DNA from: Haloarcula rubra
Lineage (GTDB): Archaea; Halobacteriota; Halobacteria; Halobacteriales; Haloarculaceae
Length of the DNA: 64,000 nucleotides
Direction: 5' to 3'
NCBI RefSeq assembly: GCF_019599465.1
Contig: NZ_RKLR01000008.1
Span: 1 to 64,000, forward strand
Positions 44,886 through 62,434 of the stretch are shown here, in pieces. The notes under the pieces are model-generated. The model did not search any database. It saw only the letters and a list, made by a program, of their open reading frames with translations, and was not told the DNA's origin. Each line of letters begins with the position of its first letter. The first letter of the stretch is position 1. The position numbers were made by a program, and so were the translations under genes.

Positions 44886-45004
44886 ACTGAGTTTTGCGTA
44901 AGACGGAAATCTATATATCAGGATTCTCACGGCCTATATTCACACTATTACTCCTAACCCGGTCCCCCAATCTTTATTGCGGTTACAACTGTTTGACTCT
45001 GACA

Positions 45005-46213
45005 ATGGATAGCGAAGATGGGTCAGACACTATCCACAGTGTCTTTGAGAATGTCGACGAGGGTGGTGGGGGAATCTTTGAACAACGAGAGATACTCCAA
45101 ATCGACTATGTCCCCAGTGAGAAGCGCATCGTCGGTCGCGATGAGCAAATTGAGAAGGTGGCAGAAGAGATTGGGCCAATAGTCGTTGGTCAGCCGCCGA
45201 ATTCGATCATCATCTACGGGAAAACGGGCTGTGGAAAATCCCTCGTCGCAAAGCACGTCTCAAAAATCGCTAAAGAAGAAGCTGAGAATCGTGGTGTGAG
45301 GCTTGCGACGGGATACGTCAATTGCCAGCAGGCAAAGGGCAACTCCGACGCACTGAGCAAGTACGGTCGGGCAATCAACCCACCAGAGAGCAGTATGACG
45401 TTCCCGGCTAGGGGAATTTCCGAGAATGAGTATTTCGAGCGAGTCTGGTCAGTCCTGAATGATTTTTACGACGCTGCGATCATCATCCTCGATGAAGTTG
45501 ACAAACTCAATAACGACGACCTATTGATGGCGCTTTCCCGGGCAGGAGAGGACGGGAGTGTGGATGTTCCGATTGGCGTGATTGCAGTGTCGAACAAAAT
45601 TAACTACCGGGAGAAGATGAGCGAGCGAACAAAGAGCTCGTTCGGGCACAACGAATTCATCTTTGAGCCCTACGACGCCAGTCAAATCCGGGAGATTCTC
45701 CAGAATCGGACTGATGCCTTTGCCGATGGAGTTCTCGACGACGGGGTGATTCCTCGTGCGGCCGCTCTGAGCGCGAAAGAACACGGAGATGCTCGAAAGG
45801 CCATGCGACTCCTTCGGTATGCCGGTGACCAGGCAAATAAGGAAAACGCCGACCGGGTGAAGGAATCTCACCTCTCCGATGCACGGGCTTCGGCAGAAGT
45901 TGACCGTCTACTCGAACTCATATCGGGATTGCCTCCTCACAGCAAGCATGTCTTGATCGCGCTGGCAAATCTCACGAAAAACCAGCCTGAGCGGGAGTGG
46001 TTCCGGACGATGAAGATACGCGAGATGTATCTCGACGTCTGTGAGCAGAGTGGTGCCGATCCGCTATCAGCCGAACGAACACGGCAATTGCTCAACGAAC
46101 TCTGTTTCCTGGAGATCGCGGGCAGCCGACGGGGGACTGGTGAAGGAAAAGGACACTACAGCCAGTACACCCTTCTGTGGGATGCGGATATCGTTCTCTC
46201 TCTGGATGCCTGA
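45005..46213 (+). CDS. orc1/cdc6: Orc1/Cdc6 origin-recognition ATPase
   Basis: A 402-residue AAA+ initiator. Walker A G72-K-T-G-C-G-K-S79, Walker B IIILD163-EVD, sensor 1 VIAVSNKINYREKM, initiator-specific segment around ERTKSSFGHNEFIFEPYDAS, sensor 2 GDARKAMRLLRYAG, and a C-terminal winged helix (about 310-400). ATG 45005 follows TATA-like sequence and gives a protein of the usual 380-420 residues; the upstream 37 codons are hydrophobic and atypical. Its place next to the repeat boxes means it probably starts replication of this replicon. It is convergent with the HD-domain gene. Confidence 0.9.
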   Translation: MDSEDGSDTIHSVFENVDEGGGGIFEQREILQIDYVPSEKRIVGRDEQIEKVAEEIGPIVVGQPPNSIIIYGKTGCGKSLVAKHVSKIAKEEAENRGVRLATGYVNCQQAKGNSDALSKYGRAINPPESSMTFPARGISENEYFERVWSVLNDFYDAAIIILDEVDKLNNDDLLMALSRAGEDGSVDVPIGVIAVSNKINYREKMSERTKSSFGHNEFIFEPYDASQIREILQNRTDAFADGVLDDGVIPRAAALSAKEHGDARKAMRLLRYAGDQANKENADRVKESHLSDARASAEVDRLLELISGLPPHSKHVLIALANLTKNQPEREWFRTMKIREMYLDVCEQSGADPLSAERTRQLLNELCFLEIAGSRRGTGEGKGHYSQYTLLWDADIVLSLDA

Positions 46214-47320: not shown

Positions 47321-47527
47321 CTACCCATCGCATCCGTTGCAACAGTCATGGGAAAGCAACCGTTCTGGTAGACCACAGCAACCACAGATCGGACACTCAG
47401 TCAACGATGTCGGCGGCAGAGAATCGCATTCTCGAATTGCCGCCTGGAGATGCGCGATTACATCTGGAGATTCCGCCCGCGTCAATGCCTGTACGAGATG
47501 CATCCGGAGCCGCTCTTTGGCCGTCAT
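47321..47527 (-). CDS. 68-residue zinc-finger protein in the PCNA operon
   Basis: The protein has a helical first half (MTAKERLRMHLVQALTRAES, DVIAHLQAAIRECDSLPP) and a cysteine-rich end, ECPICGCCGLPERLLSHDCC-NGCDG, with CxxC and further Cys and His ligands. Its ATG overlaps the PCNA stop (47525-47529), so it is translated with the clamp. It may bind the clamp or DNA. No family is recognised. Confidence 0.65.
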   Translation of the reverse strand: MTAKERLRMHLVQALTRAESPDVIAHLQAAIRECDSLPPTSLTECPICGCCGLPERLLSHDCCNGCDG

Positions 47528-48543
47528 CAGGTCTCGATACGTGGTGCCACCATCGCTGCGACACTACACTCGCCGTCGGCAATTTCGTAGTCTACCAGCA
47601 TCGGGAATTGGTCTCCGAATGTGAGAGTGACATCGTCAGACTTGGGGAGCTTTTTGGAGATGTTCTTGATATAGTCAAGACTGAATAGTGCTCGTCCGTC
47701 AACGGCGTCTAGACTCTCGTATTCGTCAGCAGTGAGTCTGAGCGAGACGTCATCGGTATCGCCTTCAGCCTCAATGAACACTGTCTCGTCAGCTTCTACG
47801 CAGCGGAATCCGATGTGATCGGATACCATGTCAGCAGCCTTCACCGCTCGCGATATCTGGCTCCCCCCGACGGTAAGGCTGATTGGGAGTTCCATCTCCG
47901 GAATCTCGGGCTCCTGTCGTATACTATCGGGGTCGATACACGCCATCGTGAACTCGACACCGTCGATGACGATGAGAAGCTTGTACGTGGAAGTGTCGAA
48001 CGAAACCTGGACGAGATCATCTTTCTTTGCGAGTTTGAGAACGGACTCGAATCGCTCTAGATTGACTCCCAGCAGGCCGTCACCGGACTCGTAGGATTCG
48101 AATGCAGCAGCCGACAGCTCTAGATCGTACATCGCGACGTTCGCTGGGTCAACCGCTCTGCTAGTAATGCCGTCCGATCCAACAGTCAGTTTCGCCTCGT
48201 CGACGATGACTCGCAGCGTTGAGATGAAATTCTTGAGTTCGCCACCCAAGATCGCAGCCTGAAAGCGCTCTGGAGGGCCCGTGAGTACGCTTTCCTCCTC
48301 AGTCTCGTCTTCGGCATCAGCTTCGTCGGAAGCCTCTGCTATCGACTCCTCACTGGTGTCTTGCTCGTCGGTCAGGTCGGCTGCTGGCTCACTGTCGATA
48401 TTAGCCTCACCATCGACCTCTTCGTTTGTTGTTGCGTCAGTAGCGTCTTCCTCAACCGTACCTTCCGGGTCGGCTTCGATTTCCAGATTGTCGATATCGT
48501 CTTCAGGCTGTGCGTCTGCTGTGGATTCAGTGTTCGTGCTCAT
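47527..48543 (-). CDS. pcn: PCNA sliding clamp with a 90-residue acidic extension
   Basis: A 338-residue protein. From about residue 92 (PERFQAAILGGELKNFISTL) it is an ordinary archaeal PCNA of about 247 residues. It has TVGSDGITSRAVDPANVAMY, LLGVNLERFESVLKLAKKDD, the interdomain loop EPEIPEMELP and an FSLDYIKNISKKLPKSDDVT-like second domain ending AAMVAPRIE. The first 90 residues are almost wholly Asp, Glu, Ala, Ser and Thr and probably unfolded; the family normally lacks any such part. The shared element lies about 113 bases upstream. This is a second clamp beside the host's, presumably serving replication of this replicon. Confidence 0.9.
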   Translation of the reverse strand: MSTNTESTADAQPEDDIDNLEIEADPEGTVEEDATDATTNEEVDGEANIDSEPAADLTDEQDTSEESIAEASDEADAEDETEEESVLTGPPERFQAAILGGELKNFISTLRVIVDEAKLTVGSDGITSRAVDPANVAMYDLELSAAAFESYESGDGLLGVNLERFESVLKLAKKDDLVQVSFDTSTYKLLIVIDGVEFTMACIDPDSIRQEPEIPEMELPISLTVGGSQISRAVKAADMVSDHIGFRCVEADETVFIEAEGDTDDVSLRLTADEYESLDAVDGRALFSLDYIKNISKKLPKSDDVTLTFGDQFPMLVDYEIADGECSVAAMVAPRIET

Positions 48544-48695: not shown

Positions 48696-49742
48696 CTACT
48701 GCTTGACTGGATTACTGTCGGTGTGTAACGTAGGGATCGTGTCGGCGTTCTCGCACAATTTGCCTTCCTCTTCGAGCTCCTGAAGCTTCCGCCAGATTGT
48801 TCGGATAGTGAGTGTGGAGGTGAAGCCAGCTTCAGCAATGGCCTTTTGAGATGCACGTTTTTCCCCGGTCTCAGCCTGTTGAGCGTGATATAATGCGGCG
48901 GCTGCAACGCCAGACGGCGGTCGTCCATTCGAAAGTCTGCCGACCGCAGGACAAAGAAGCAGCTCTCGGGCACGTTGTTCAATGTAATTGCCCGCCCCGA
49001 TTGCTGACGCAATACGTGGGAGGAAATCTTGCGGAAGGGGTGGTGGGATTGCCAACTCTAATTCCCGATTCATCTGCGTATAGGCGTTATTGATCGCATC
49101 ACTGTCGACACGGGCGACGTCGGCGACCTCACTTCTATGCCGGGGTAGCTGTTCCAACCGGCAGGCAGCGAAGACACTACCACTGGCAATCGCCTCGATA
49201 GAGCGACCCTTGAGCAAGTTCGCATCCCACGCATTCCGATAGATATCCACTGCTTCGTCGAATACCGAGTCAGAGAGGTCCAGAACGCTAATCAACCGAG
49301 CAATCTCGCTAAGCCCATCCCGCAGCGATTTATCCCGCTTTGAGGGGACTTTCGACTGAGCATCCCAGCGACGGAGGCGCGAAAACAGCCGTTGAGTATT
49401 CGAATCGAGCGGGTTTCCGGCGCCGTCCTGGTAGTAGCCGATATCGGTCGAGAGGCCTCGGTCGTGAAGCCGATGGGTGGTTGGAGAGCCAGTCCGTTCG
49501 GGCTCACGTCCACTCTCTGTGTAGTTCCACCTCCGGCGACGATCGAGGTCGTCACGGTGGACAACGAGGCCACATCCCTCACAGTACGTTTCGTTTTGTT
49601 GAACGACCAAGTCGTCGCTCTCACACTCAGGACAGCAGCGCTCCGATGCTAGCCGGGACGTTGGCGTTTCTTCCGTAGAGAGGTTTGAGCGTCCTTGTTT
49701 CTGATGTCGACGACCAGTTGCGGGTGAAGATTCTGTGGACAT
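48696..49742 (-). CDS. tfb: Transcription factor B (TFB)
   Basis: A 348-residue general transcription factor. Zinc ribbon with C37-P-E-C40 and C54-E-G-C57 (after a 30-residue Ser/Thr-rich start), B-finger/linker RRWNYTESGREPERTGSPTT, and two cyclin repeats (about 130-225 and 235-325: SIEAIASGSVFAACRLEQLP, GRPPSGVAAAALYHAQQAET), with a helix-turn-helix in the second that normally reads the BRE. All parts are present. Replicon-borne TFB copies in haloarchaea can give promoter selectivity; here the gene carries the shared element in its own upstream region. Confidence 0.9.
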   Translation of the reverse strand: MSTESSPATGRRHQKQGRSNLSTEETPTSRLASERCCPECESDDLVVQQNETYCEGCGLVVHRDDLDRRRRWNYTESGREPERTGSPTTHRLHDRGLSTDIGYYQDGAGNPLDSNTQRLFSRLRRWDAQSKVPSKRDKSLRDGLSEIARLISVLDLSDSVFDEAVDIYRNAWDANLLKGRSIEAIASGSVFAACRLEQLPRHRSEVADVARVDSDAINNAYTQMNRELELAIPPPLPQDFLPRIASAIGAGNYIEQRARELLLCPAVGRLSNGRPPSGVAAAALYHAQQAETGEKRASQKAIAEAGFTSTLTIRTIWRKLQELEEEGKLCENADTIPTLHTDSNPVKQ

Positions 49743-49927: not shown

Positions 49928-50446
49928 CTAAGAAACTGACCGCGTCAGATACTCAGGGAGGTCGGGATCGTACTCATCGTGGAACGCACCGACTACAGAC
50001 TGCTGCCACTCAATATATCCAGGTTCGCTGGGAGTTATCGTTCCCAACCCTCGGAGCCGTGCGTAGTCAGAGAGATCGATGCATTCGACCGAAGAGACAG
50101 CTCCGCCTGCCCCCGGAGAAACACCAGAAGCACTTTCGAGCGGTGTCTCACGCCAGGCATCGAAGCAACCATCGGTAGATGCGCTGACGACGCACCCATC
50201 AGTCGCTCCTGCAAAAAGTTCCGTCGTCACTCGGGCCAAATTGCGATAGTGTCCAAATGGGATGAGGAGAGAATTGCTGTGGTGATTGACAGCGGGCTGG
50301 CCGCGGGTATAACTTGAATCGCCGTAGACGAGCCACTGTTCGCTGTCATTCATCCAGTCTCCTTCTTTGAGATAGTCAAGGACAGCTTCGAGATGTTCGT
50401 TCGAACGGTACGTGATGTAGCCGGCAATAGAAGCGTAAAAGCTCAT
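49928..50446 (-). CDS. 172-residue protein, function unknown
   Basis: The protein begins MSFYASIAGYITYRSNEHLE and has an alpha/beta layout (HLEAVLDYLKEGDWMNDSEQ, NLARVTTELFAGATDGCVVS, DLSDYARLRGLGTITPSEPG). The first 60 residues, with GYITY and a helix rich in Leu, recall small plasmid-borne proteins of haloarchaea, but I cannot name a family. The shared element lies about 110 bases upstream. Confidence 0.6.
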   Translation of the reverse strand: MSFYASIAGYITYRSNEHLEAVLDYLKEGDWMNDSEQWLVYGDSSYTRGQPAVNHHSNSLLIPFGHYRNLARVTTELFAGATDGCVVSASTDGCFDAWRETPLESASGVSPGAGGAVSSVECIDLSDYARLRGLGTITPSEPGYIEWQQSVVGAFHDEYDPDLPEYLTRSVS

Positions 50447-50655: not shown

Positions 50656-52461
50656 TCAGTTGTCCTCACGCCATCGATTAGCACACTCACAGCAGGTCAA
50701 CATCCGCGTCGGTGGTTCGTCGATAGAACGCAGCTGGACGAGGCGATAGTGTGCCCGGTCGTGAGTACACTTCGGACACGTCGCACTTGTCGATGGGAGG
50801 ATGATATCCGGCTCTGAGGTAGCCGTCGTTGCGACATCTTCCTGCCGCTCTGCGACACCCACGAGTTCGCTGGCTGCTGTCGACGCTGGCGCGGATTCAC
50901 TCGGTGACTGCAATGCAGTTCCGAACAACGCATCATCACGAATGAGCGCCCAGAATCGGCGTTTCCCTGGAGGAATCGGAGTCGTGTGTATGGCCTGCCC
51001 GCCATCGGGAACGACCAACTGTTCGTCACCGGCCTCAGGAGTATCAGTGACCTCTAATCCAGCCGGTTCAGGGTCAGAATCCGGTGCTGACGTATTCGCG
51101 ACCACTTCTTGGATAGTAACATTGACCGCTTGACTGGAGGCATCCTCGTCGACGTCGACGGTGACGACGTTATCCTGAGTCCGCCACCACTCGGGGAGTG
51201 GAATCGCGCCACCTTCTTCGTAGATTTCCGTCGCCTTCAGCCACTCACCGGCATCGACGCCGTTGCCCTCCGACTCATCAAGCCGGTCGGGTGGCGTATG
51301 GACCGGACGAGAAACCTTCTCGACACCAGGCGCACCCATAGCCGGGATCGTCTTCGCCGAATGCACTTGATGGGGTTGTTCGATTCCACGCTTGACGTTG
51401 CGCTCTTTGACCGCTTCCCAGTCGACATCAGCGATGTCGCCGCGCGGCGCCGGCCCATCTCCCCGGTCTATGACGGTAATGAGCGTCTCAGAATCCGCCG
51501 CAAGCGTGGCTTGGTCGTTGTACTTTCCGACCTTTCCGCCGACGATTCGGACGAGGTCGCCTTCGTGGAGGATGACATCCTGCCCTGAGCGGGTCCAGAT
51601 AGTGAACTTGATTGTCCCCGTGTCGTCTTTGATGATGCCGACCTGCTGTTGAGACGACGATTTTGGCTGCCAGAGTGTCGTGACCTCGCCCTGAATGTCG
51701 GCCTCAACGTTGTACTTCGATGGGATTACAGGGACCGTCGCGATTGGCTGAATAACGCCTGCCTCCTGGAAGCACTCATCCTGAAGGTTCGACATAGCTG
51801 TGTAGAGTGATTGCCCACCGAGAACCTTGCCCGCAAGGCGATGTTCGAGCGCCTCAAGTGTTGGGCCAGTGAGCAACCGATCAGACAGTTTCGCGGCCGT
51901 CTCGCGAACGGTAGCTGCCGTCTCACCGTCGAGTCGGGCAAAGGGGTCGTAGCGAGTGAGTCCGGCGCCGAGCACGCGGTCCAAGTAGTCCTCCCGACGA
52001 TTGCGCTGCTCATCGAGGATTTCATCGCGTCGACGAGCCTCTCGGTCGATACCGATTACAGCTGCAGCCAAGGCTTTCTCACGCTGGCGTTTGCGCTCGG
52101 ATCGAAGCCCATGCAGGCGCTCTTGCGCTTCCAGTGGGAGGCCAGTGAGATCCTCGTCAGCCAGATCTATCGGGTCGATATCCGTGGCAACGCTCGTTCG
52201 GAGGCTAGCGTTCACCCAGTGGGCGTCGAGTTCTACCTGACCGGTACCTTCGATTGGCTCCCCGAATTCATCGTATTTGGGCTCGGAGCGAGCGGCGAGC
52301 AACAGTTCGCCGGCGTTCTCCAAGCGAGTCCCCAAGCAGTCACTCTGCAGATGCGGACTCGCGTAGAGGCCGCGCATATCTAATTCGTCGAAGCGGCTAC
52401 CTTGCTCGATTTCTGTGTTCGTCAGTCGGTTCTGTCCACGCTGTCTGTAGTTGGCTCTCAT
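50656..52461 (-). CDS. OB-fold protein fused to a TFIIS-like zinc ribbon
   Basis: A 601-residue protein. Residues about 1-230 are helical and charged (RLHGLRSERKRQREKALAAA, a probable coiled coil). About 240-335 forms an OB fold of RPA type: NVEADIQGEVTTLWQPKSSS, VGIIKDDTGTIKFTIWTRSG, LHEGDLVRIVGGKVGKYNDQ. An acidic linker follows. The last 40 residues are a TFIIS/TFS ribbon with C562-P-K-C565 and C590-x-x-C593, and the hallmark RSIDEPPTRML including the acidic pair D581-E582 that activates RNA cleavage in RNA polymerase. I know no standard family with this combination. ATG 52461 is chosen (MRANYRQRGQ). Confidence 0.8.
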   Translation of the reverse strand: MRANYRQRGQNRLTNTEIEQGSRFDELDMRGLYASPHLQSDCLGTRLENAGELLLAARSEPKYDEFGEPIEGTGQVELDAHWVNASLRTSVATDIDPIDLADEDLTGLPLEAQERLHGLRSERKRQREKALAAAVIGIDREARRRDEILDEQRNRREDYLDRVLGAGLTRYDPFARLDGETAATVRETAAKLSDRLLTGPTLEALEHRLAGKVLGGQSLYTAMSNLQDECFQEAGVIQPIATVPVIPSKYNVEADIQGEVTTLWQPKSSSQQQVGIIKDDTGTIKFTIWTRSGQDVILHEGDLVRIVGGKVGKYNDQATLAADSETLITVIDRGDGPAPRGDIADVDWEAVKERNVKRGIEQPHQVHSAKTIPAMGAPGVEKVSRPVHTPPDRLDESEGNGVDAGEWLKATEIYEEGGAIPLPEWWRTQDNVVTVDVDEDASSQAVNVTIQEVVANTSAPDSDPEPAGLEVTDTPEAGDEQLVVPDGGQAIHTTPIPPGKRRFWALIRDDALFGTALQSPSESAPASTAASELVGVAERQEDVATTATSEPDIILPSTSATCPKCTHDRAHYRLVQLRSIDEPPTRMLTCCECANRWREDN

Positions 52462-52890
52462 TGCTTGAAACACCAGGTGAGGCGCGAAGGCCACGATGTC
52501 ACCATCGCCACCTCTCGAACTCCCTCAGCCCCCTTTGGGGGCAAATACTGGCGTGAGTGACTGGCCGAGACGCAAATCTCTCTCACCGCTATGGTTATAT
52601 CCAAGTCAAGCGTATCCGAAAATGGACCTTGAACGGTCCTACATAAGGTAGGAAGGCAAACCTCGCCTTTCCTTTCGATACTTCTGAGCCGATGCTGGGG
52701 TCGAGATTCGAGTTCAAACACGGTTCCCAATAATCCGTCCGACAAGCCGAAGCCAGTCTTCACGGTAGATGTGTGGATTTTGTGTGGCTATCCATCTATA
52801 ATCGCCAGACTGCGACGCATCCAGCAGCTACAGTTATACTCAGTTCGAGCGTTGTAGAGACCGGAAAGCATCGGCTTGCTTTCTTACCTT
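52462..52890. other. Divergent promoter region between two OB-fold genes
   Basis: A 429-base gap. It holds a shared element copy for the minus gene (52524-52552) and small dyads at 52625-52640 (GGACC/GGTCC) and 52651-52673 (GGAAGGC/GCCTTTCC). Sequence near 52590-52610 (TATGGTTATATCC) is TATA-like. No gene is seen. Confidence 0.4.
52524..52552 (-). promoter_or_regulatory. Shared upstream element, copy 11, with C/G dyad
   Basis: Coding strand CCAGTATTTGCCCCCAAAGG-GGGC, about 80 bases before ATG 52461. The CCCCC run pairs with GGGGG to form a hairpin-capable dyad. Confidence 0.5.
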
Positions 52891-54780
52891 ATGTACAGCG
52901 ACAGCAACAGCGATCGCTCCAACGAGGACGATCACAAGAAGAGCGGTAGTACCGACACCCACCATGTCGACGTTCCCCGGTCCCCGTATGTCCGACGCTA
53001 CATGGGCCTCGATGCGGTCGAGGCTCGCAGTGACGACATTCCTTCAGACTGGGACGTGGCTGGGCAAGAAAGCGCAACGCTCTCCGAGAGCGACTGCTAC
53101 GGATGGTTCGATGGGCAACCCATGGTTCCCTCCCGTAGCGACGAACGGAGGGCAGAGATCAACGTGATTGGCAGCGCACCCGATGCACTGTCCGAACCTG
53201 ACTCTGTTCCGCCGAGCAGCGCGCTCATCCTGAAAGGCGCAGACAAACTCACCGATCCGACTGGCGACCAGTTAGTTGGTGTGTCCTCTGGCCTAGATGA
53301 ATCTCACCCCAGTGGTTCCGCTGATACCACGACGCCAACGGACCAGAAGCTCGTCCCGTGGAATCAACTCGATTTCCGGACGCTTCGACTCCGTTCGCGT
53401 GACTACATCCCGAAAGCAGAGCAGACGCCTGCGTCTGCTTTGGGGATAGAACCGACCGACCTCGAAGTATCACTCCCGGATGGTTCGACGCTCCCACTCG
53501 GAGCAATCGTTCCAAACCCGGAGCAGTACTCGCGGTCCTCGATTCCAGGCATCGAACGCCGACTTGCACTCGATTACGAGCTCAAGAAGGTGACCAACGG
53601 AATCGACCAACACGGTCAGACGTCTGGCGTTGCTGCTGTACTCGATGCACACACTGATGCCTTAGCGATCTATCGCGAGGAGCAGAACAGCATCTTCCCA
53701 CAGCGACGTAGCGAGCGATTCGAACAATCGATTCAGGAACAGTCAGACCCGCTTCGAGAACTCGAAGCAAGCTATCCTGAGAGTGTGCCTAAAGTCCTAG
53801 CTGAAGCCAAGCGCTTCTACACGGACTTCCGGCATGCCCACGAAATTCGAACGAAGACGCCTGTCCAGATGGCATCCGTCTTAGCACGCTGCGTGTTAGA
53901 TGGACGCGATCTCTCATCTGCAGTCCTGACCCAGTCAGAACTGGAGAAACACGATCCTCGGAACGTACTGAAGATCGGCAACATCCAGTACACCAATACC
54001 TACTCTACGAGAGGGTATGTCTCCACTCAGGGACGAGTGAAGCGAGTGTATTATCCGGATAATCCGAAGATCAAGTTCGGATTTATTCTGGAGGATGATT
54101 CCGGCTTCGCGTACGTTGCAGTCTGGAAACCCAGCGAACGAGTCATCACCCGTTCGACTTCGGATCCAGACGATGCCGACGGCGAGGTGATTGTGTCTGA
54201 GAGCATCTTTGTGGAGCCGAATGAAGGCGATTTGGTTCGTCTCACGGACTTCCGCAAAGACGAATTCAACGACCAGCCCTCGCTAAATTCTCGATGGGAT
54301 AGCGACATTCGCATCCTCGAGAAAGCCACGCGAACGTCGACGAGGCGACCGCCAACGCAACACCGCCCCACTCCTCCGACCCACAAGCGCAGCAACGCTG
54401 CCAGTGAAGACGAGTCTACGGGCGAATCTGCGAACGCAATGGCGAGATACACTGGCGATACCTCGACTGAATGGCCCGATTCGGACTGGCTGAATTGGAT
54501 TATGTCTGCCGAGATAGCTACCGTCACCCGTCAATCGACGATAGCGCAACCCACCGCCGGTGAGACTGTCTCCAACGGAGCGGATGAGCAGACTGATACC
54601 CACCTATCTTCGGATAGTGCATGGGATTCCTCAGCCTGCTGGGTGTGCCAACAGCAATCCGGCTCGATGTCCTACGACAGCGATGTCCGGGCGTTCTATC
54701 ACCTAATCTGCCTCGACCGTGCTGGTGTCGACAGCTGCTCTGAGTACGAAGAACTCCGGTCCCAGGAGGTTCACCACTGA
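52891..54780 (+). CDS. OB-fold (RPA-like) protein with C-terminal zinc finger
   Basis: A 629-residue protein. The first 270 residues are polar with little predicted structure. A helical region (about 270-370: VPKVLAEAKRFYTDFRHAHE, VQMASVLARCVLDGRDLSSA) leads into an OB fold (about 375-475: YVSTQGRVKRVYYPDNPKIK, FGFILEDDSGFAYVAVWKPS, EGDLVRLTDFRKDEFNDQPS). Near the C-terminus is CWVCQQQSGSM with a later HLICLDRAG, a possible zinc finger. The plan parallels the OB-TFIIS protein encoded divergently from it, but the end module differs. It probably binds single-stranded DNA. ATG 52891 is used. Confidence 0.7.
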   Translation: MYSDSNSDRSNEDDHKKSGSTDTHHVDVPRSPYVRRYMGLDAVEARSDDIPSDWDVAGQESATLSESDCYGWFDGQPMVPSRSDERRAEINVIGSAPDALSEPDSVPPSSALILKGADKLTDPTGDQLVGVSSGLDESHPSGSADTTTPTDQKLVPWNQLDFRTLRLRSRDYIPKAEQTPASALGIEPTDLEVSLPDGSTLPLGAIVPNPEQYSRSSIPGIERRLALDYELKKVTNGIDQHGQTSGVAAVLDAHTDALAIYREEQNSIFPQRRSERFEQSIQEQSDPLRELEASYPESVPKVLAEAKRFYTDFRHAHEIRTKTPVQMASVLARCVLDGRDLSSAVLTQSELEKHDPRNVLKIGNIQYTNTYSTRGYVSTQGRVKRVYYPDNPKIKFGFILEDDSGFAYVAVWKPSERVITRSTSDPDDADGEVIVSESIFVEPNEGDLVRLTDFRKDEFNDQPSLNSRWDSDIRILEKATRTSTRRPPTQHRPTPPTHKRSNAASEDESTGESANAMARYTGDTSTEWPDSDWLNWIMSAEIATVTRQSTIAQPTAGETVSNGADEQTDTHLSSDSAWDSSACWVCQQQSGSMSYDSDVRAFYHLICLDRAGVDSCSEYEELRSQEVHH

Positions 54781-55603: not shown

Positions 55604-56077
55604 ATGAGCACGGATGTAGCGCAGTCAGAAGACTGGTATCAAGTACGACTCACGCTGCCGTGGGTCGTGCCAGGGGCACCAGGCGTCCAAGACGCAATCA
55701 ATATCGCCGTGGCGGAGGTTGGCCGTCGTGCAGACGCCTCAGCGGTTCGTTCTGCCGATATTTCGGTCCAAGACGTTGCCTGCCCAAGCTGTAGCTGGGA
55801 GATGGAAGCAGTGCTTTGCACACACGGCTACGCCATGGTCGTACTGGACATTACAGTGGAGATAGAGGCCAGCTCAGTAGATGAAAGCACGACCCTGGTC
55901 AAACGCGAACTCGGCTCTCGGATGAAAGATATCCCATTAACAGTCGTCGACTCGATCCCCGTCGACGACATCGAGGACTCGTCGGTCTCGTTCGCGGAGC
56001 TCGGTCTTCCAGCAGAGAATCGTCAGGAGACTACAGAGCCTTCCACTTCCAGCAACATACACAAATCCGGTTCGTAA
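55604..56077 (+). CDS. DUF555-like protein
   Basis: A 157-residue protein. The pattern VQDAINIAVAEVGRRADASA, V-A-C-P-S-C-x-W-E-M-E, then VVLDITVEIEASSVDESTTL and KRELGSRMKDIPLTVVDSI follows the DUF555 (UPF0212) family of archaea position by position. It keeps the CPxC pair that would be half of a zinc site. The family's function is unknown. The copy is diverged and carries an extra acidic tail of about 40 residues. It stands alone in an A+T-rich region. Confidence 0.65.
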   Translation: MSTDVAQSEDWYQVRLTLPWVVPGAPGVQDAINIAVAEVGRRADASAVRSADISVQDVACPSCSWEMEAVLCTHGYAMVVLDITVEIEASSVDESTTLVKRELGSRMKDIPLTVVDSIPVDDIEDSSVSFAELGLPAENRQETTEPSTSSNIHKSGS

Positions 56078-56411: not shown

Positions 56412-58007
56412 CTACTGAGCTGGCGTCTCGGGAACGTCCATGTCGGCTACCAGTTCGTCTACAGCGTCCTCAACCGCCGACTCGACGTCTTCCGTATTCC
56501 CCTCGTAGACAGCCAACACAGCGTCTGCTTCCTCCGTCTCACCGCTTTCCAGTGCGCCCAGTCGGTCCTGCGTAGCGTCCAGCGTCTCTGCTACCCACGA
56601 ATCCCGAACCGCTTCGTCCACCACCGAAATGTGTTCAGGCTGGAGCGAGACGTTGATTCCGTAATCCGTTTCGTAGCTGTGTATCTTCCCGATTACAGCC
56701 ACATAGCAGGGTGTCTCGGTCGAAGAGAGGACCTGCATTGCCTCCGGCTGGTACTCACCAGCGTAGACACTGACCGATTCAGAAGCCGCCATGACCGTCC
56801 CGCGCCAGTACTCTGAGTCCGTCCCGACATCCTTCGTCTCCATGAGCGTTCCTACGACGAAGACCCGGTTGGCTGCTTCACCGGAGGGGAGCAGTGAGAA
56901 GTTCGGCGCTCGGTCCTCCTCACCGTCTTCGGGACGGGTGAAGGAGTGCGTCGCCTGATTCAGGTCCTGTGCAAAGACACGCTTGGCCGGTTGGCGCTGC
57001 GTTCGTGCCGGATCGAGGGCACCGTCTTCCAGACCAGGCTGTTCACTGGAGTAGACTGTCTGGGCCACATCGTCGACGAGGAAGTAGTCGCCGATGACCG
57101 GACCACTGACCTCGAAGGTTCGGCCGATGAGCTGGTCTCGGAAGGCGTTGAGTACGACAGTGGGATCCACTGTTTCCATCGCCATCTCGATAGCTTCCTC
57201 CAGGCTCATGCCAGTGACCGCTTCGGTCATTTCGTCGTTGAACAGCGCCCGGACTGCCGACTGACCATCGTCGAGAATCGCCTTGATACGAAGGTCGAAC
57301 TCACCATCGACCTCACCGTGTTCAGCACAGCGGCCGTTCGTCACCAGTCGACTGCAGTTCTCCTCCGGGCAGCGCTTGATGAGCCCAGAGCCATCCTCGA
57401 TGGCGACGAGCGTCCCGGTGGCACTCACAGAGCCGTCGACCGGGATGACTTCCTGTTCGGCCTCTACGACGCTACTGGCTTTGTTGAGCGAGATACTGAA
57501 TTTGCCCTCGTACTCGTTGGTGATGACCGACGAGAAGTCGTAGGTCACACCTTCTTCGAGAGTCGGGAGCTCGTCGGTGTTCTTCGCCCACTTGACGAAC
57601 TTCATCTGGGAACTCTCGTCTGCCACGAGGCCGACCTGAGCCATGGAGTCATGCGTTACATCCCAGAGGTCGATGACCTGTGCTCGAACGTCCACCCACT
57701 CTTCGTCGCCGAGGTCCGCTATCTCACGGAGGAGCGTTCGGTCGAAGTCTTCTGACCGACCGCCACTGGAACTGTAGCCCGCCAGAGCCGCGAGGTCCTC
57801 GGAGACGTCGTCGTCCGAAAGGTCGAACTCATCGATGAGCTTGCGAACGACCGCCACCTGTGCGTCGTCGACAGGCACCTTGAACGCGGTCATCGACTCC
57901 ATCTGCTCTTCGACCGATGCCGGCGACATGTCGACACCGATTGTCTCGAATTCGCCGCTGATGTTTGCCGCACGGGACGCTACGTCGGAATTGGTGTTGA
58001 CACTCAT
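56412..58007 (-). CDS. rpa: RPA-RPAP fusion protein (single-stranded DNA binding)
   Basis: A 531-residue protein that should coat single-stranded DNA during replication and repair. It starts MSVNTNSDVASRAANISGEF. OB fold 1 is at about 125-200 (WVDVRAQVIDLWDVTHDSMA). A second region has a zinc finger (RCPEENCSRLVTNGRCAEHG), typical of haloarchaeal Rpa, followed by OB text to about 340. From about 390 (NRVFVVGTLMETKDVGTDSE, CYVAVIGKIHSYETDYGINV, DSWVAETLDATQDRLGALES) it matches the RPA-associated protein (RPAP, COG3390). In haloarchaea these are usually separate neighbouring genes; here they form one chain. Two copies of the shared element lie upstream. Confidence 0.85.
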   Translation of the reverse strand: MSVNTNSDVASRAANISGEFETIGVDMSPASVEEQMESMTAFKVPVDDAQVAVVRKLIDEFDLSDDDVSEDLAALAGYSSSGGRSEDFDRTLLREIADLGDEEWVDVRAQVIDLWDVTHDSMAQVGLVADESSQMKFVKWAKNTDELPTLEEGVTYDFSSVITNEYEGKFSISLNKASSVVEAEQEVIPVDGSVSATGTLVAIEDGSGLIKRCPEENCSRLVTNGRCAEHGEVDGEFDLRIKAILDDGQSAVRALFNDEMTEAVTGMSLEEAIEMAMETVDPTVVLNAFRDQLIGRTFEVSGPVIGDYFLVDDVAQTVYSSEQPGLEDGALDPARTQRQPAKRVFAQDLNQATHSFTRPEDGEEDRAPNFSLLPSGEAANRVFVVGTLMETKDVGTDSEYWRGTVMAASESVSVYAGEYQPEAMQVLSSTETPCYVAVIGKIHSYETDYGINVSLQPEHISVVDEAVRDSWVAETLDATQDRLGALESGETEEADAVLAVYEGNTEDVESAVEDAVDELVADMDVPETPAQ

Positions 58008-58112
58008 GGTCGTCTCTCTGAAGGGATTCACGAGGTGAACCGGTACGAGATGCGAGACCTCGATAGTCGTGACATCACAACTATCTCTCGGACCTGCTCC
58101 GCCCCACATCCC

Positions 58113-59803: not shown

Positions 59804-61903
59804 CTACCCGAACAGCCGAGACAACCGGTCACGGACACCTGTACTGGTCTTTCGGTCCGCCCCTCTGATTTGTTCGTTGGCCTCGGTGTATTGCTGAAGG
59901 ACCGCGTCGATTCCGGTGAGCGTTTCCTTGGCCGTCGGCGTGTCTTCGCGTCGGATCATCGGCCGGATGATAGCCTTGAGATGCTTCGTTGGATGATCTG
60001 GAAGACGAGCATCCTCCTCTGACAGGAGGCCTTCCGTCCGAAGCAGTTCCCGGTAGCGATGGCGTTCGCTCATCAGCTCGTCGATGGCTTGGAGGTATAC
60101 CCGGTTACTGAGCTTGACACGCTCGTTTTCCTCCTCGAGTGCGTGATAGTCAGCATACTGCTGGCTTTCCCGACGAAGTTTTCGGGCCAATATCCGGTTG
60201 TCCTCACGAGCCATGTCCAAGGCCTGCTGTGTCGGCGTCCGGCCTTCACGAGGCACACTCCAGTCGTTCGCGTGCTTTTCGGCGTCAGTCAAATGTGGGT
60301 CTGTACGCTCCCAGTCCTTTCCGGCTGCCGCCGCCGTGAGTTCCATAGCCTCCTGTGTACTCTCACGGAGCGTATCGTCGGTGTCGAGACCACGGGGAGA
60401 AGCAGGAGTGCGTCCGTGTTCGTCCTGTTCTGCTACGTACCCATTTTCGACGGAGTCCCCGGACACTGCATCGGGATTTCGGACAGGTGGGTCAGTGTGG
60501 GCTGTGGGCGAGGGAGGCTCTGGTGCCGGCGTCGCATCGCCACCAGAGGCGCTGGATGGCCCCGTGTCGGCTTTACTGTCGGCGGATGGTGAATAAGGCG
60601 CCACGCCATCTGAAGTGTCGCCAGTGCCGCCAGCGTTGCTCAGACCAGTTCCCGTGTCAGCCGTAGTGGCGTGGCCCGAAGATTTCGATGAATCGTCGAA
60701 AGGAGTCGATGCATCAGTTGTCTCGCTTTTCCCATTTGAAGATGACTCGCCGAATTTCTTCCCATCGGCGGAGGGCAATTCGTAGTAGTCGTCGACACGG
60801 AGTAGGGCCCGGGCAATAGTGACATCCCCGTATGTTGACCCCGAGCTGTAGTGACGCCGGTCCCATTTCTCTCGATACAGACCGGAATCGCGAAAGAGGG
60901 CGTCCATCTGAGCAGGGTCTTTACCCGTCCAGAAAGCCAGGTAGTGAGCCATCGCCATGTCGGCTTCAGATTGAGAGGGGTACTCGGCTTGTGGTGACCC
61001 CCACATCGAGCTATCGCCATCGTAGAGGCGCCGTCGACGACTGCCCCCCTTCGCGTCGAACATCTTGATGAGTATCTCCTCGTCCGATAGCTCAACGCCC
61101 GGCCCGGCAAGGTCGTCGAACGTTTTCGGCATGACTTCCGGAAGATACCGAGCATCGACTCGCGCCAGTGCGTCTCTCACAGCCGATGCTTCGATGGTGT
61201 CGAGGTCATCACCGTATCTGTCTCGAAGCGATTCTGACTCGTGCTGTCCGCCAGAGGCGGAAGATGAATCAGCTTCGTTTCCACCGTTTTTTGATATATT
61301 CGACGCGGCTGCAGTATCTAGACTCGTCTGTCCGTCAGAGTCGATACCACCTCGGATGAAATCTCGGTGAACGGCTTCTATGTCATCTTGACAGGTGCGT
61401 ATTTCCCGGGGTGTTCCATCGACGTGCTCACCGGTCACAGTGAAGTAGCGGTCGGAGTCATACATTTCGACCCTGCCTTTCCGATTCCCACCATCGGGAA
61501 GCTCACCACCGACGAGGATATGCACACCAGTTCCGGAGGGAGAGACTTCGGTGTAGGAGTCCAATCGATCGATGATATCTTCAGCCCATTCTTCGAGTTC
61601 ACCGGTGTCGGCATCACGGCACTTGTCGAGATCGACGCCGGTGATGGAGACATTCTCGGTAAACACAAATCCGAGGCCGTCGGAGTTGACGCGACTGTCG
61701 CCGTGGGCTGCAACTGCTTGCTCGAAATCCCGACGCTGATTCGAGTCGGTGACATCCAGATTCGGGCTGCCACTGGTCCGATACGGTTTCGTCGGGATTT
61801 TGGTAGGTTTCCCGTCTCGCTCCCCCTCTCGCCAGCAGATCCAGTTCTCGATGGGGCGGATTTCTTCGGGTATTTCCTCGTCTCTAACGTCGATTATCGG
61901 CAT
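59804..61903 (-). CDS. Prim-pol type primase (archaeo-eukaryotic primase superfamily)
   Basis: A 699-residue protein. The N-terminal prim-pol domain (about 1-190) shows IENWICWREGERDGKPTKIP, SITGVDLDKC (the catalytic D-x-D), VSPSGTGVHILVGG and SDRYFTVTGEHVDG. A second region (about 225-345) has FDAKGGSRRRRLYDGDSSMW and DALFRDSGLYREKWDRRHYS, ending GDVTIARAL, as in primase accessory domains of plasmid and virus primases. The rest is a low-complexity linker and a coiled coil with no helicase motif, so a separate helicase must act with it. ATG 61903 (MPIIDVRDEE) is chosen; the shared element lies about 50 bases before it. Confidence 0.85.
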   Translation of the reverse strand: MPIIDVRDEEIPEEIRPIENWICWREGERDGKPTKIPTKPYRTSGSPNLDVTDSNQRRDFEQAVAAHGDSRVNSDGLGFVFTENVSITGVDLDKCRDADTGELEEWAEDIIDRLDSYTEVSPSGTGVHILVGGELPDGGNRKGRVEMYDSDRYFTVTGEHVDGTPREIRTCQDDIEAVHRDFIRGGIDSDGQTSLDTAAASNISKNGGNEADSSSASGGQHESESLRDRYGDDLDTIEASAVRDALARVDARYLPEVMPKTFDDLAGPGVELSDEEILIKMFDAKGGSRRRRLYDGDSSMWGSPQAEYPSQSEADMAMAHYLAFWTGKDPAQMDALFRDSGLYREKWDRRHYSSGSTYGDVTIARALLRVDDYYELPSADGKKFGESSSNGKSETTDASTPFDDSSKSSGHATTADTGTGLSNAGGTGDTSDGVAPYSPSADSKADTGPSSASGGDATPAPEPPSPTAHTDPPVRNPDAVSGDSVENGYVAEQDEHGRTPASPRGLDTDDTLRESTQEAMELTAAAAGKDWERTDPHLTDAEKHANDWSVPREGRTPTQQALDMAREDNRILARKLRRESQQYADYHALEEENERVKLSNRVYLQAIDELMSERHRYRELLRTEGLLSEEDARLPDHPTKHLKAIIRPMIRREDTPTAKETLTGIDAVLQQYTEANEQIRGADRKTSTGVRDRLSRLFG

Positions 61904-62434
61904 GGTTTGAGTTGGTATTGTTCCGGCGCATACGCCTCCGTCACCGAGGCGTGACAAACCGGTTTCAGGGTGGATGGAACACTACGAGATGAAACCGATA
62001 GACTGCACGCGATTTCACTGCTGTATCGACTCCGTCCCCACCCAACACTATGATAAATCAATTCGGGAATGGCTAATGGAGACAGGAGAGCGCTCGATAG
62101 ACCCTCTAGGTATGCTCTCGTCGACGGGCACCACCCTAACGCCCCCTCATTTACAATATTGGTATTAGAGTGGTTCAGACCCTGTATTTCTGCATCTGCC
62201 CACTTTTCAACCACCCTTACGCCTTGCGCGGATTTTGTCGCAAACCGATTTCCAGACGCAATCGAGTTTGGAATCTGAGTGTCGAGAGACCCCCAATTAG
62301 TCTCTAAGCCATTTTGCACACTTTGTGTGTCCGTCAACAGCAGCCGGGTGTTCTCAGAGGTGGATTCGCGGTTTAGGAGCTCTCTACCTGCCGTGCGCGG
62401 AATGCGCACTTTCCGCGCGAATGGATTCACGCGG
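61904..62434. other. 531-base gap before the primase gene
   Basis: No gene is supported. It holds the primase upstream element and, at 62395-62418, a hairpin GCGCGGAA-TGCGCACT-TTCCGCGC just after the stop of the conjugation ATPase gene, which could end or process its transcript, though no T-run follows. Confidence 0.45.
61944..61963 (-). promoter_or_regulatory. Shared upstream element, copy 14
   Basis: Coding strand AACCGGTTTGTCACGCCTCG, about 51 bases before ATG 61903 of the primase gene. Confidence 0.4.

Follow-up and report, generated by a model that had tools for sequence, protein, structure and literature searches.

What does an RNA-cleavage ribbon do at the end of a protein that also carries a predicted DNA-binding fold? 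The question is posed by a gene in a 64,000-nucleotide stretch of Haloarcula rubra DNA (NZ_RKLR01000008.1, positions 1 to 64,000), referred to here as the window. The minus-strand open reading frame (50656-52494) encodes 612 amino acids from a GTG codon at 52494, or 601 from an ATG at 52461; the RefSeq orthologue begins at the position equivalent to this ATG. Residue numbers follow the 612-residue form throughout. A sequence-only reading of the locus had proposed an OB fold joined to a TFIIS-type ribbon, in an unfamiliar order of domains. Profile, sequence, and fold searches recovered both domains, and profile searches of Pfam and NCBIfam found no model in either that covers the whole domain order. 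Orthologues in 11 plasmid records are annotated as "hypothetical protein". A full-text literature search, most subscription journals lying outside its reach, found no paper describing the fusion protein. Both halves belong to known kinds, and to us the novelty lies in their conserved combination.

The protein is more than an OB fold and a ribbon, since it also contains conserved N-terminal, helical, and conserved middle regions (Table 1). The full-length AlphaFold model was poor (pLDDT 49.5) and was used for the OB and helical parts only.

Table 1. Domains of the fusion protein and features of its neighbourhood in the window
Feature	Position	Strand	Remarks
OB-TFIIS fusion protein gene	50656..52461	(-)	601 aa; alternative GTG 52494 gives 612 aa
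Conserved N-terminal region, residues 12-110	52165..52461	(-)	without known domain; 52/99 positions invariant (14 orthologues)
Helical region, residues 111-260	51715..52164	(-)	common to plasmid-borne single-OB "DNA-binding proteins" (Rfa5/6-type)
RPA-type OB fold, residues 265-343 (approx.)	51466..51702	(-)	sequence profiles and fold search
Conserved middle region, residues 346-450	51145..51459	(-)	dN/dS 0.10
Fast-evolving linker, residues 451-505	50980..51144	(-)	dN/dS 0.73
Short conserved motif PxPxGKRRxWALxR...FGTAL, residues 506-530	50905..50979	(-)	orthologue alignment
TFIIS/TFS C-terminal zinc ribbon, residues 572-609, four Cys	50668..50781	(-)	PF01096
Catalytic Asp592-Glu593, ribbon tip (RSIDEPPTR loop)	50716..50721	(-)	sequence and orthologue alignment
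Divergently transcribed paralogue, related helical and OB region, without TFIIS ribbon	52876..54780	(+)	
Conserved 172-aa neighbour, without known domain	49928..50446	(-)	49-56% in nearly all other plasmids
TFB (transcription initiation factor IIB) paralogue	48696..49742	(-)	
PCNA sliding clamp paralogue	47527..48543	(-)	
Orc1/Cdc6 initiator	44894..46213	(+)	
DUF555 protein, conserved neighbour	55604..56077	(+)	
RPA3-like replication factor A with C-terminal extension	56412..58109	(-)	317.9 bits to PRK07217
NrS-1 primase-polymerase-like protein	59804..61957	(-)	PF22763, E 4e-28

The TFIIS zinc ribbon (PF01096) was the sole Pfam domain above its cut-off (residues 572-609, 52.6 bits, E = 4e-14, cut-off 21). 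It scored 57.7 bits in a genome scan, and scores of this size mean that the ribbon is not a chance match. Mimicry of TFIIS through chance cysteines was ruled out by the profile score and by conservation among orthologues. The four cysteines and the D-E pair that had been claimed for the C-terminal ~40 residues are all present, as C573, C576, C601, and C604 and as D592-E593 within the tip RSIDEPPTR. When the C-terminal 109 residues were modelled separately, the ribbon reached a pLDDT of about 80. The top PDB fold matches of this model were the Thermococcus celer Rpb9/TFS ribbon, TFIIS in RNA polymerase II complexes, and RPA12, with weak E-values (0.03-0.08) owing to the small size of 40 residues; by sequence, the best match in the PDB was an RNA polymerase III subunit (E = 1.6e-8). 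The ribbon could have proved to belong to another class, and profile, sequence, and fold searches all placed it with TFIIS. In a phylogeny of 46 columns, too weak to name a donor, the fusion ribbons formed one clade (support 92/93) on the TFS1 side.

Archaeal TFS (TIGR01384, PF01096) shares with the fusion the C-terminal Cys4 ribbon, the LPTT-like lead-in, and the RSxDEP tip with its Asp-Glu pair. It differs in having an N-terminal zinc ribbon and a length of about 110 residues, against 601 residues with OB, helical, and N-terminal regions in the fusion, which scored 33 bits against the full-length TFS equivalog TIGR01384, below the cut-off of 64.75. Models place the N-terminal ribbon of canonical TFS on the polymerase funnel (PMC5715097). 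An RNA polymerase (RNAP)-docking module of this kind, either an N-terminal ribbon or TFIIS domain II, is absent from the fusion: the only other cysteines are single ones (C53 and C241), and no Pfam match to such a module was obtained. No other known RNAP-docking domain was recognised in the protein. Docking on the polymerase would therefore need another contact, which might be provided by the middle region, the OB part, or the motif at residues 506-530, a possible second contact. RPA12 and RPC11, of RNA polymerases I and III, have a C-terminal ribbon of the same class; unlike the fusion, they are polymerase subunits with an N-terminal ribbon and not DNA-binding proteins.

The OB region gave a local match to NCBIfam PRK07217 (replication factor A) of 44.2 bits (E = 1.6e-11), below the 353-bit full-length cut-off, and other OB and RPA families of Pfam and NCBIfam matched below threshold. 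A sequence match to an OB domain from Methanosarcina (PDB 2kbn) had an E-value of 6e-8. In fold searches, the OB model matched 2ken (TM 0.71 on target, E = 9e-8) and also human SSB1, POT1, and RPA. These comparisons assign the predicted OB fold to the RPA/SSB class. Many haloarchaeal proteins, about 290-430 residues long, match the fusion over residues ~110-354. By tblastn, residues 58-345 align with a "DNA-binding protein" of pNRC100 (30.5% identity, E = 2e-18), which, from its size and replicon, is probably the Rfa5/Rfa6-type single-OB mini-chromosome protein. The relatives of ~290 residues that we examined stop directly after the OB fold, compared with 601 residues for the fusion, and related plasmid OB proteins carry C2H2-like fingers at their ends. 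By these matches, the domains of the fusion are related by descent to the OB folds of RPA and to TFS; the OB module is predicted to bind single-stranded DNA (ssDNA).

Two groups of replication proteins resemble this part of the fusion. The haloarchaeal plasmid single-OB RPA/SSB proteins (Halobacterium Rfa5/Rfa6 and the Haloferax HVO_A0019 class, about 300 residues) are homologous over the helical and OB regions but lack the N-terminal region, the middle region, the linkers, and the TFIIS ribbon. The Rfa5/Rfa6 type has been described, and deletion of either rfa gene makes Halobacterium sensitive to mitomycin (PMC5924565). Euryarchaeal RPA41 and haloarchaeal RPA3 (PRK07217) have, like the fusion, one OB fold and a C-terminal zinc module, but that module belongs to another class than the TFIIS ribbon. 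A genuine RPA3 gene and its partner gene are likewise present on plasmids bearing the fusion. Judged from its domains, the fusion is neither a TFS, whose N-terminal RNAP-docking ribbon it lacks, nor a standard RPA.

The sequence-only reading allowed that the fusion might be absent from all homologues; it was found instead at 19 loci, the window among them, that span at least 13 genera of haloarchaea. A tblastn search of plasmids returned 11 records in which at least 96% of the protein was covered at 58-93% identity, from Haloarcula, Salinirubellus, Salinigranum, Halorientalis, Halobellus, Haloplanus (three), Halarchaeum, Halorarius, and Haloglomus. Genome contigs yielded eight loci with an alignment as query, adding Halosimplex, Halonotius, Haloglomus irregulare, Halorubrum, and Haloquadratum (five further), and two more close relatives were found in other genomes (G008 and G010). 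A single-sequence query of genome contigs and viral contigs gave no match. The fusion was not found in viral contigs with the alignment query or in the phage collection, which leaves a viral origin without support. The ribbon is intact at 17 of the 19 loci; in Haloquadratum it is cut off by a run of N (an assembly gap), and in the Haloglomus halophilum orthologue (L044:19998-21785, L051:9995-11782) a frameshift lies just after the DEPPT of the ribbon. This frameshift is either a sequencing error or ribbon decay. In Halosimplex aquaticum (L050 2205-12867), the fusion and the divergent paralogue lie on the chromosome, between IS elements and next to two near-identical transposase genes. This chromosomal copy probably remains from a plasmid that had integrated.

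Two TFIIS-ribbon matches are present in nearly all of the 293 Halobacteriales genomes sampled. These genomes contain at least three fusions, a count that comes from one-by-one inspection of the genomes with three or more ribbons; long stop-to-stop "open frames" around other TFIIS ribbons were not counted as fusions. Other ribbon genes were seen along the way. A plasmid of Natribaculum luteum (L086:4755-5141) encodes a stand-alone TFS/RPB9-like ribbon protein, 61% identical to the fusion in the ribbon and flanked by genes for a ThiF-family adenylyltransferase and for vWA and MoxR proteins. Three genomes (L082, L083, and L084) have a second, partial ribbon match (profile 2-33) in a small open reading frame that lies tail to tail with the TFS2 gene.

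Among four close orthologues, dN/dS reached 0.73 in the linker (residues 451-505) but was 0.11 in the ribbon and 0.04 in the OB fold. All 13 aligned orthologues share the 15-residue stretch YRLVQLRSIDEPPTR without a single change, while the synonymous codons in it vary. D592-E593 is likewise invariant in the 13, and every intact copy keeps the canonical Asp-Glu at its tip. These patterns indicate almost free evolution of the interdomain linker and strong constraint on the catalytic tip. The Asp-Glu pair is not a zinc ligand, so zinc binding alone would not demand an invariant tip. Most simply read, the alignment points to a tip that is still chemically active inside an RNA polymerase.

The plasmids that bear the fusion measure 100-560 kb and share a module around it: the RPA3-like protein, the divergent OB paralogue, DUF555, the 172-residue protein, TFB, PCNA, and the NrS-1-polymerase-like protein. 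RPA, PCNA, TFB, and the NrS-1-polymerase-like neighbour are present in most or all of the plasmids, and Orc1/Cdc6 lies nearby in the window and in several of them. On most plasmids outside Haloarcula, the fusion gene is followed by a gene for a ~94-residue protein and then by a complete RPA3 gene with a "DNA-binding protein" that we take to be the RPA-associated partner. The fusion gene is thus set in a replicon that encodes replication and initiation factors of its own. The NrS-1-like protein is annotated as "hypothetical protein" on the megaplasmids, most of which have it, and it counts among the replication genes private to them. The divergently transcribed neighbour is a remote paralogue of the fusion, which it matches along the helical and OB parts (hhalign probability 94%, E = 9e-8); in some plasmids this paralogue has a zinc-finger-like tail (CWVC...HxxC), and in others it stops after the OB fold.

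We propose, with a probability of about one half, that the fusion serves a family of haloarchaeal megaplasmids as an accessory ssDNA-binding protein and that its flexible C-terminal tether holds a catalytically intact TFS cleavage ribbon. The OB module would keep the protein on plasmid ssDNA, for example on the non-template strand in a bubble or R-loop or on the lagging strand of a fork. With the flexible linkers supplying reach, the ribbon would enter the secondary channel of an RNA polymerase that has paused or backtracked, where Asp592-Glu593 would activate the polymerase's own RNA hydrolysis. The polymerase would then resume or be cleared, and plasmid replication and transcription could go on. 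Binding to RNAP, transcript cleavage, and the setting of the action are predictions of this proposal. Three published observations make an ssDNA-tethered cleavage mechanism sensible: of 27 archaeal genomes, 12 have the PCNA gene beside the TFS gene (PMC2643942); the RNAP subunits A1 and A2 co-purify with Pyrococcus RPA41, and RPA increases transcription in vitro (PMC3820547); and backtracked complexes block replication forks (PMC7289017). That the fusion serves replication-transcription conflicts in particular is a narrower claim, plausible but less likely than not. More speculative still, and quite improbable, is a handover from R-loop to replication fork: bound to the displaced strand, the protein would make a backtracked polymerase cut its transcript and would clear the polymerase, and the trimmed RNA 3' end would be extended by the plasmid's clamp and polymerase. 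If true, this would be a dedicated R-loop-to-fork system on an archaeal replicon. The missing N-terminal zinc ribbon counts against the proposal of an ssDNA-tethered cleavage factor, as does the poor quality of the whole-protein model. The Haloarcula rubra genome already has two canonical TFS genes, both with the N-terminal ribbon, so cleavage as such is not missing, and the one plasmid orthologue frameshifted after the DE loop suggests that the ribbon may be dispensable.

The same domains could make the protein mainly a plasmid transcription factor that, with the plasmid TFB, aids elongation or processivity while its OB fold touches the non-template strand, replication not being involved. A TFB paralogue is encoded close by on most plasmids, the ribbon tip is intact, and archaeal SSB/RPA has been reported to bind RNAP and raise transcription (PMC3820547). 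However, the neighbours are mostly replication proteins (further OB/RPA proteins, PCNA, the NrS-1-polymerase-like protein, and Orc1/Cdc6), and the plasmids differ in whether TFB is the closest partner, none being found near the fusion gene in Halarchaeum or Haloplanus rubicundus; we consider this account unlikely. Somewhat less likely again is that the ribbon is a spare zinc module, replacing an RPA41-type zinc finger in ssDNA binding or assembly and no longer touching RNA polymerase, because the RSxDEP residues, which have no structural zinc role, are fully invariant though synonymous sites vary. The absence of the TFS N-terminal ribbon and the C2H2-like terminal fingers of related plasmid OB proteins would fit such a module, as would the C-terminal zinc finger of another type in haloarchaeal RPA3-type proteins (PMC5924565), which the adjacent plasmid RPA also has.

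Inhibition of RNA polymerase, by which the plasmid would dampen host transcription, is suggested by Sulfolobus TFS4, a case of a TFS-type ribbon diversifying in archaea: TFS paralogues can become inhibitors (PMC5715097), and the fusion gene sits on a mobile element. TFS4, however, is a two-ribbon protein that inhibits RNAP and needs the three lysines of its shortened KKK tip and the loss of Asp-Glu to do so (PMC5715097), whereas the fusion has a tip of the cleavage type, with canonical Asp-Glu in all intact copies. Because of this tip we rank the inhibitor reading low, as very improbable. An accident of recent gene joining, with a functionless ribbon, could point to the frameshifted ribbon of Haloglomus halophilum and to the one lost in an assembly gap, but is scarcely credible given purifying selection on a ribbon that is intact at 17 loci and in at least 13 genera.

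A physical link between replication proteins and transcript cleavage factors in archaea had been suspected from PCNA-TFS gene neighbours (PMC2643942) and from the co-purification of RPA with RNAP (PMC3820547), without a protein that joins the two. The fusion joins domains of both kinds in one polypeptide, its catalytic tip kept intact across many genera. Archaeal replication-transcription coordination becomes directly testable in this way, with one plasmid gene and one two-residue mutation in genetically tractable organisms. The replication and transcription factors that the haloarchaeal megaplasmids bring with them are largely their own, and stalled RNA polymerase may be a direct target of the plasmid replication proteins.
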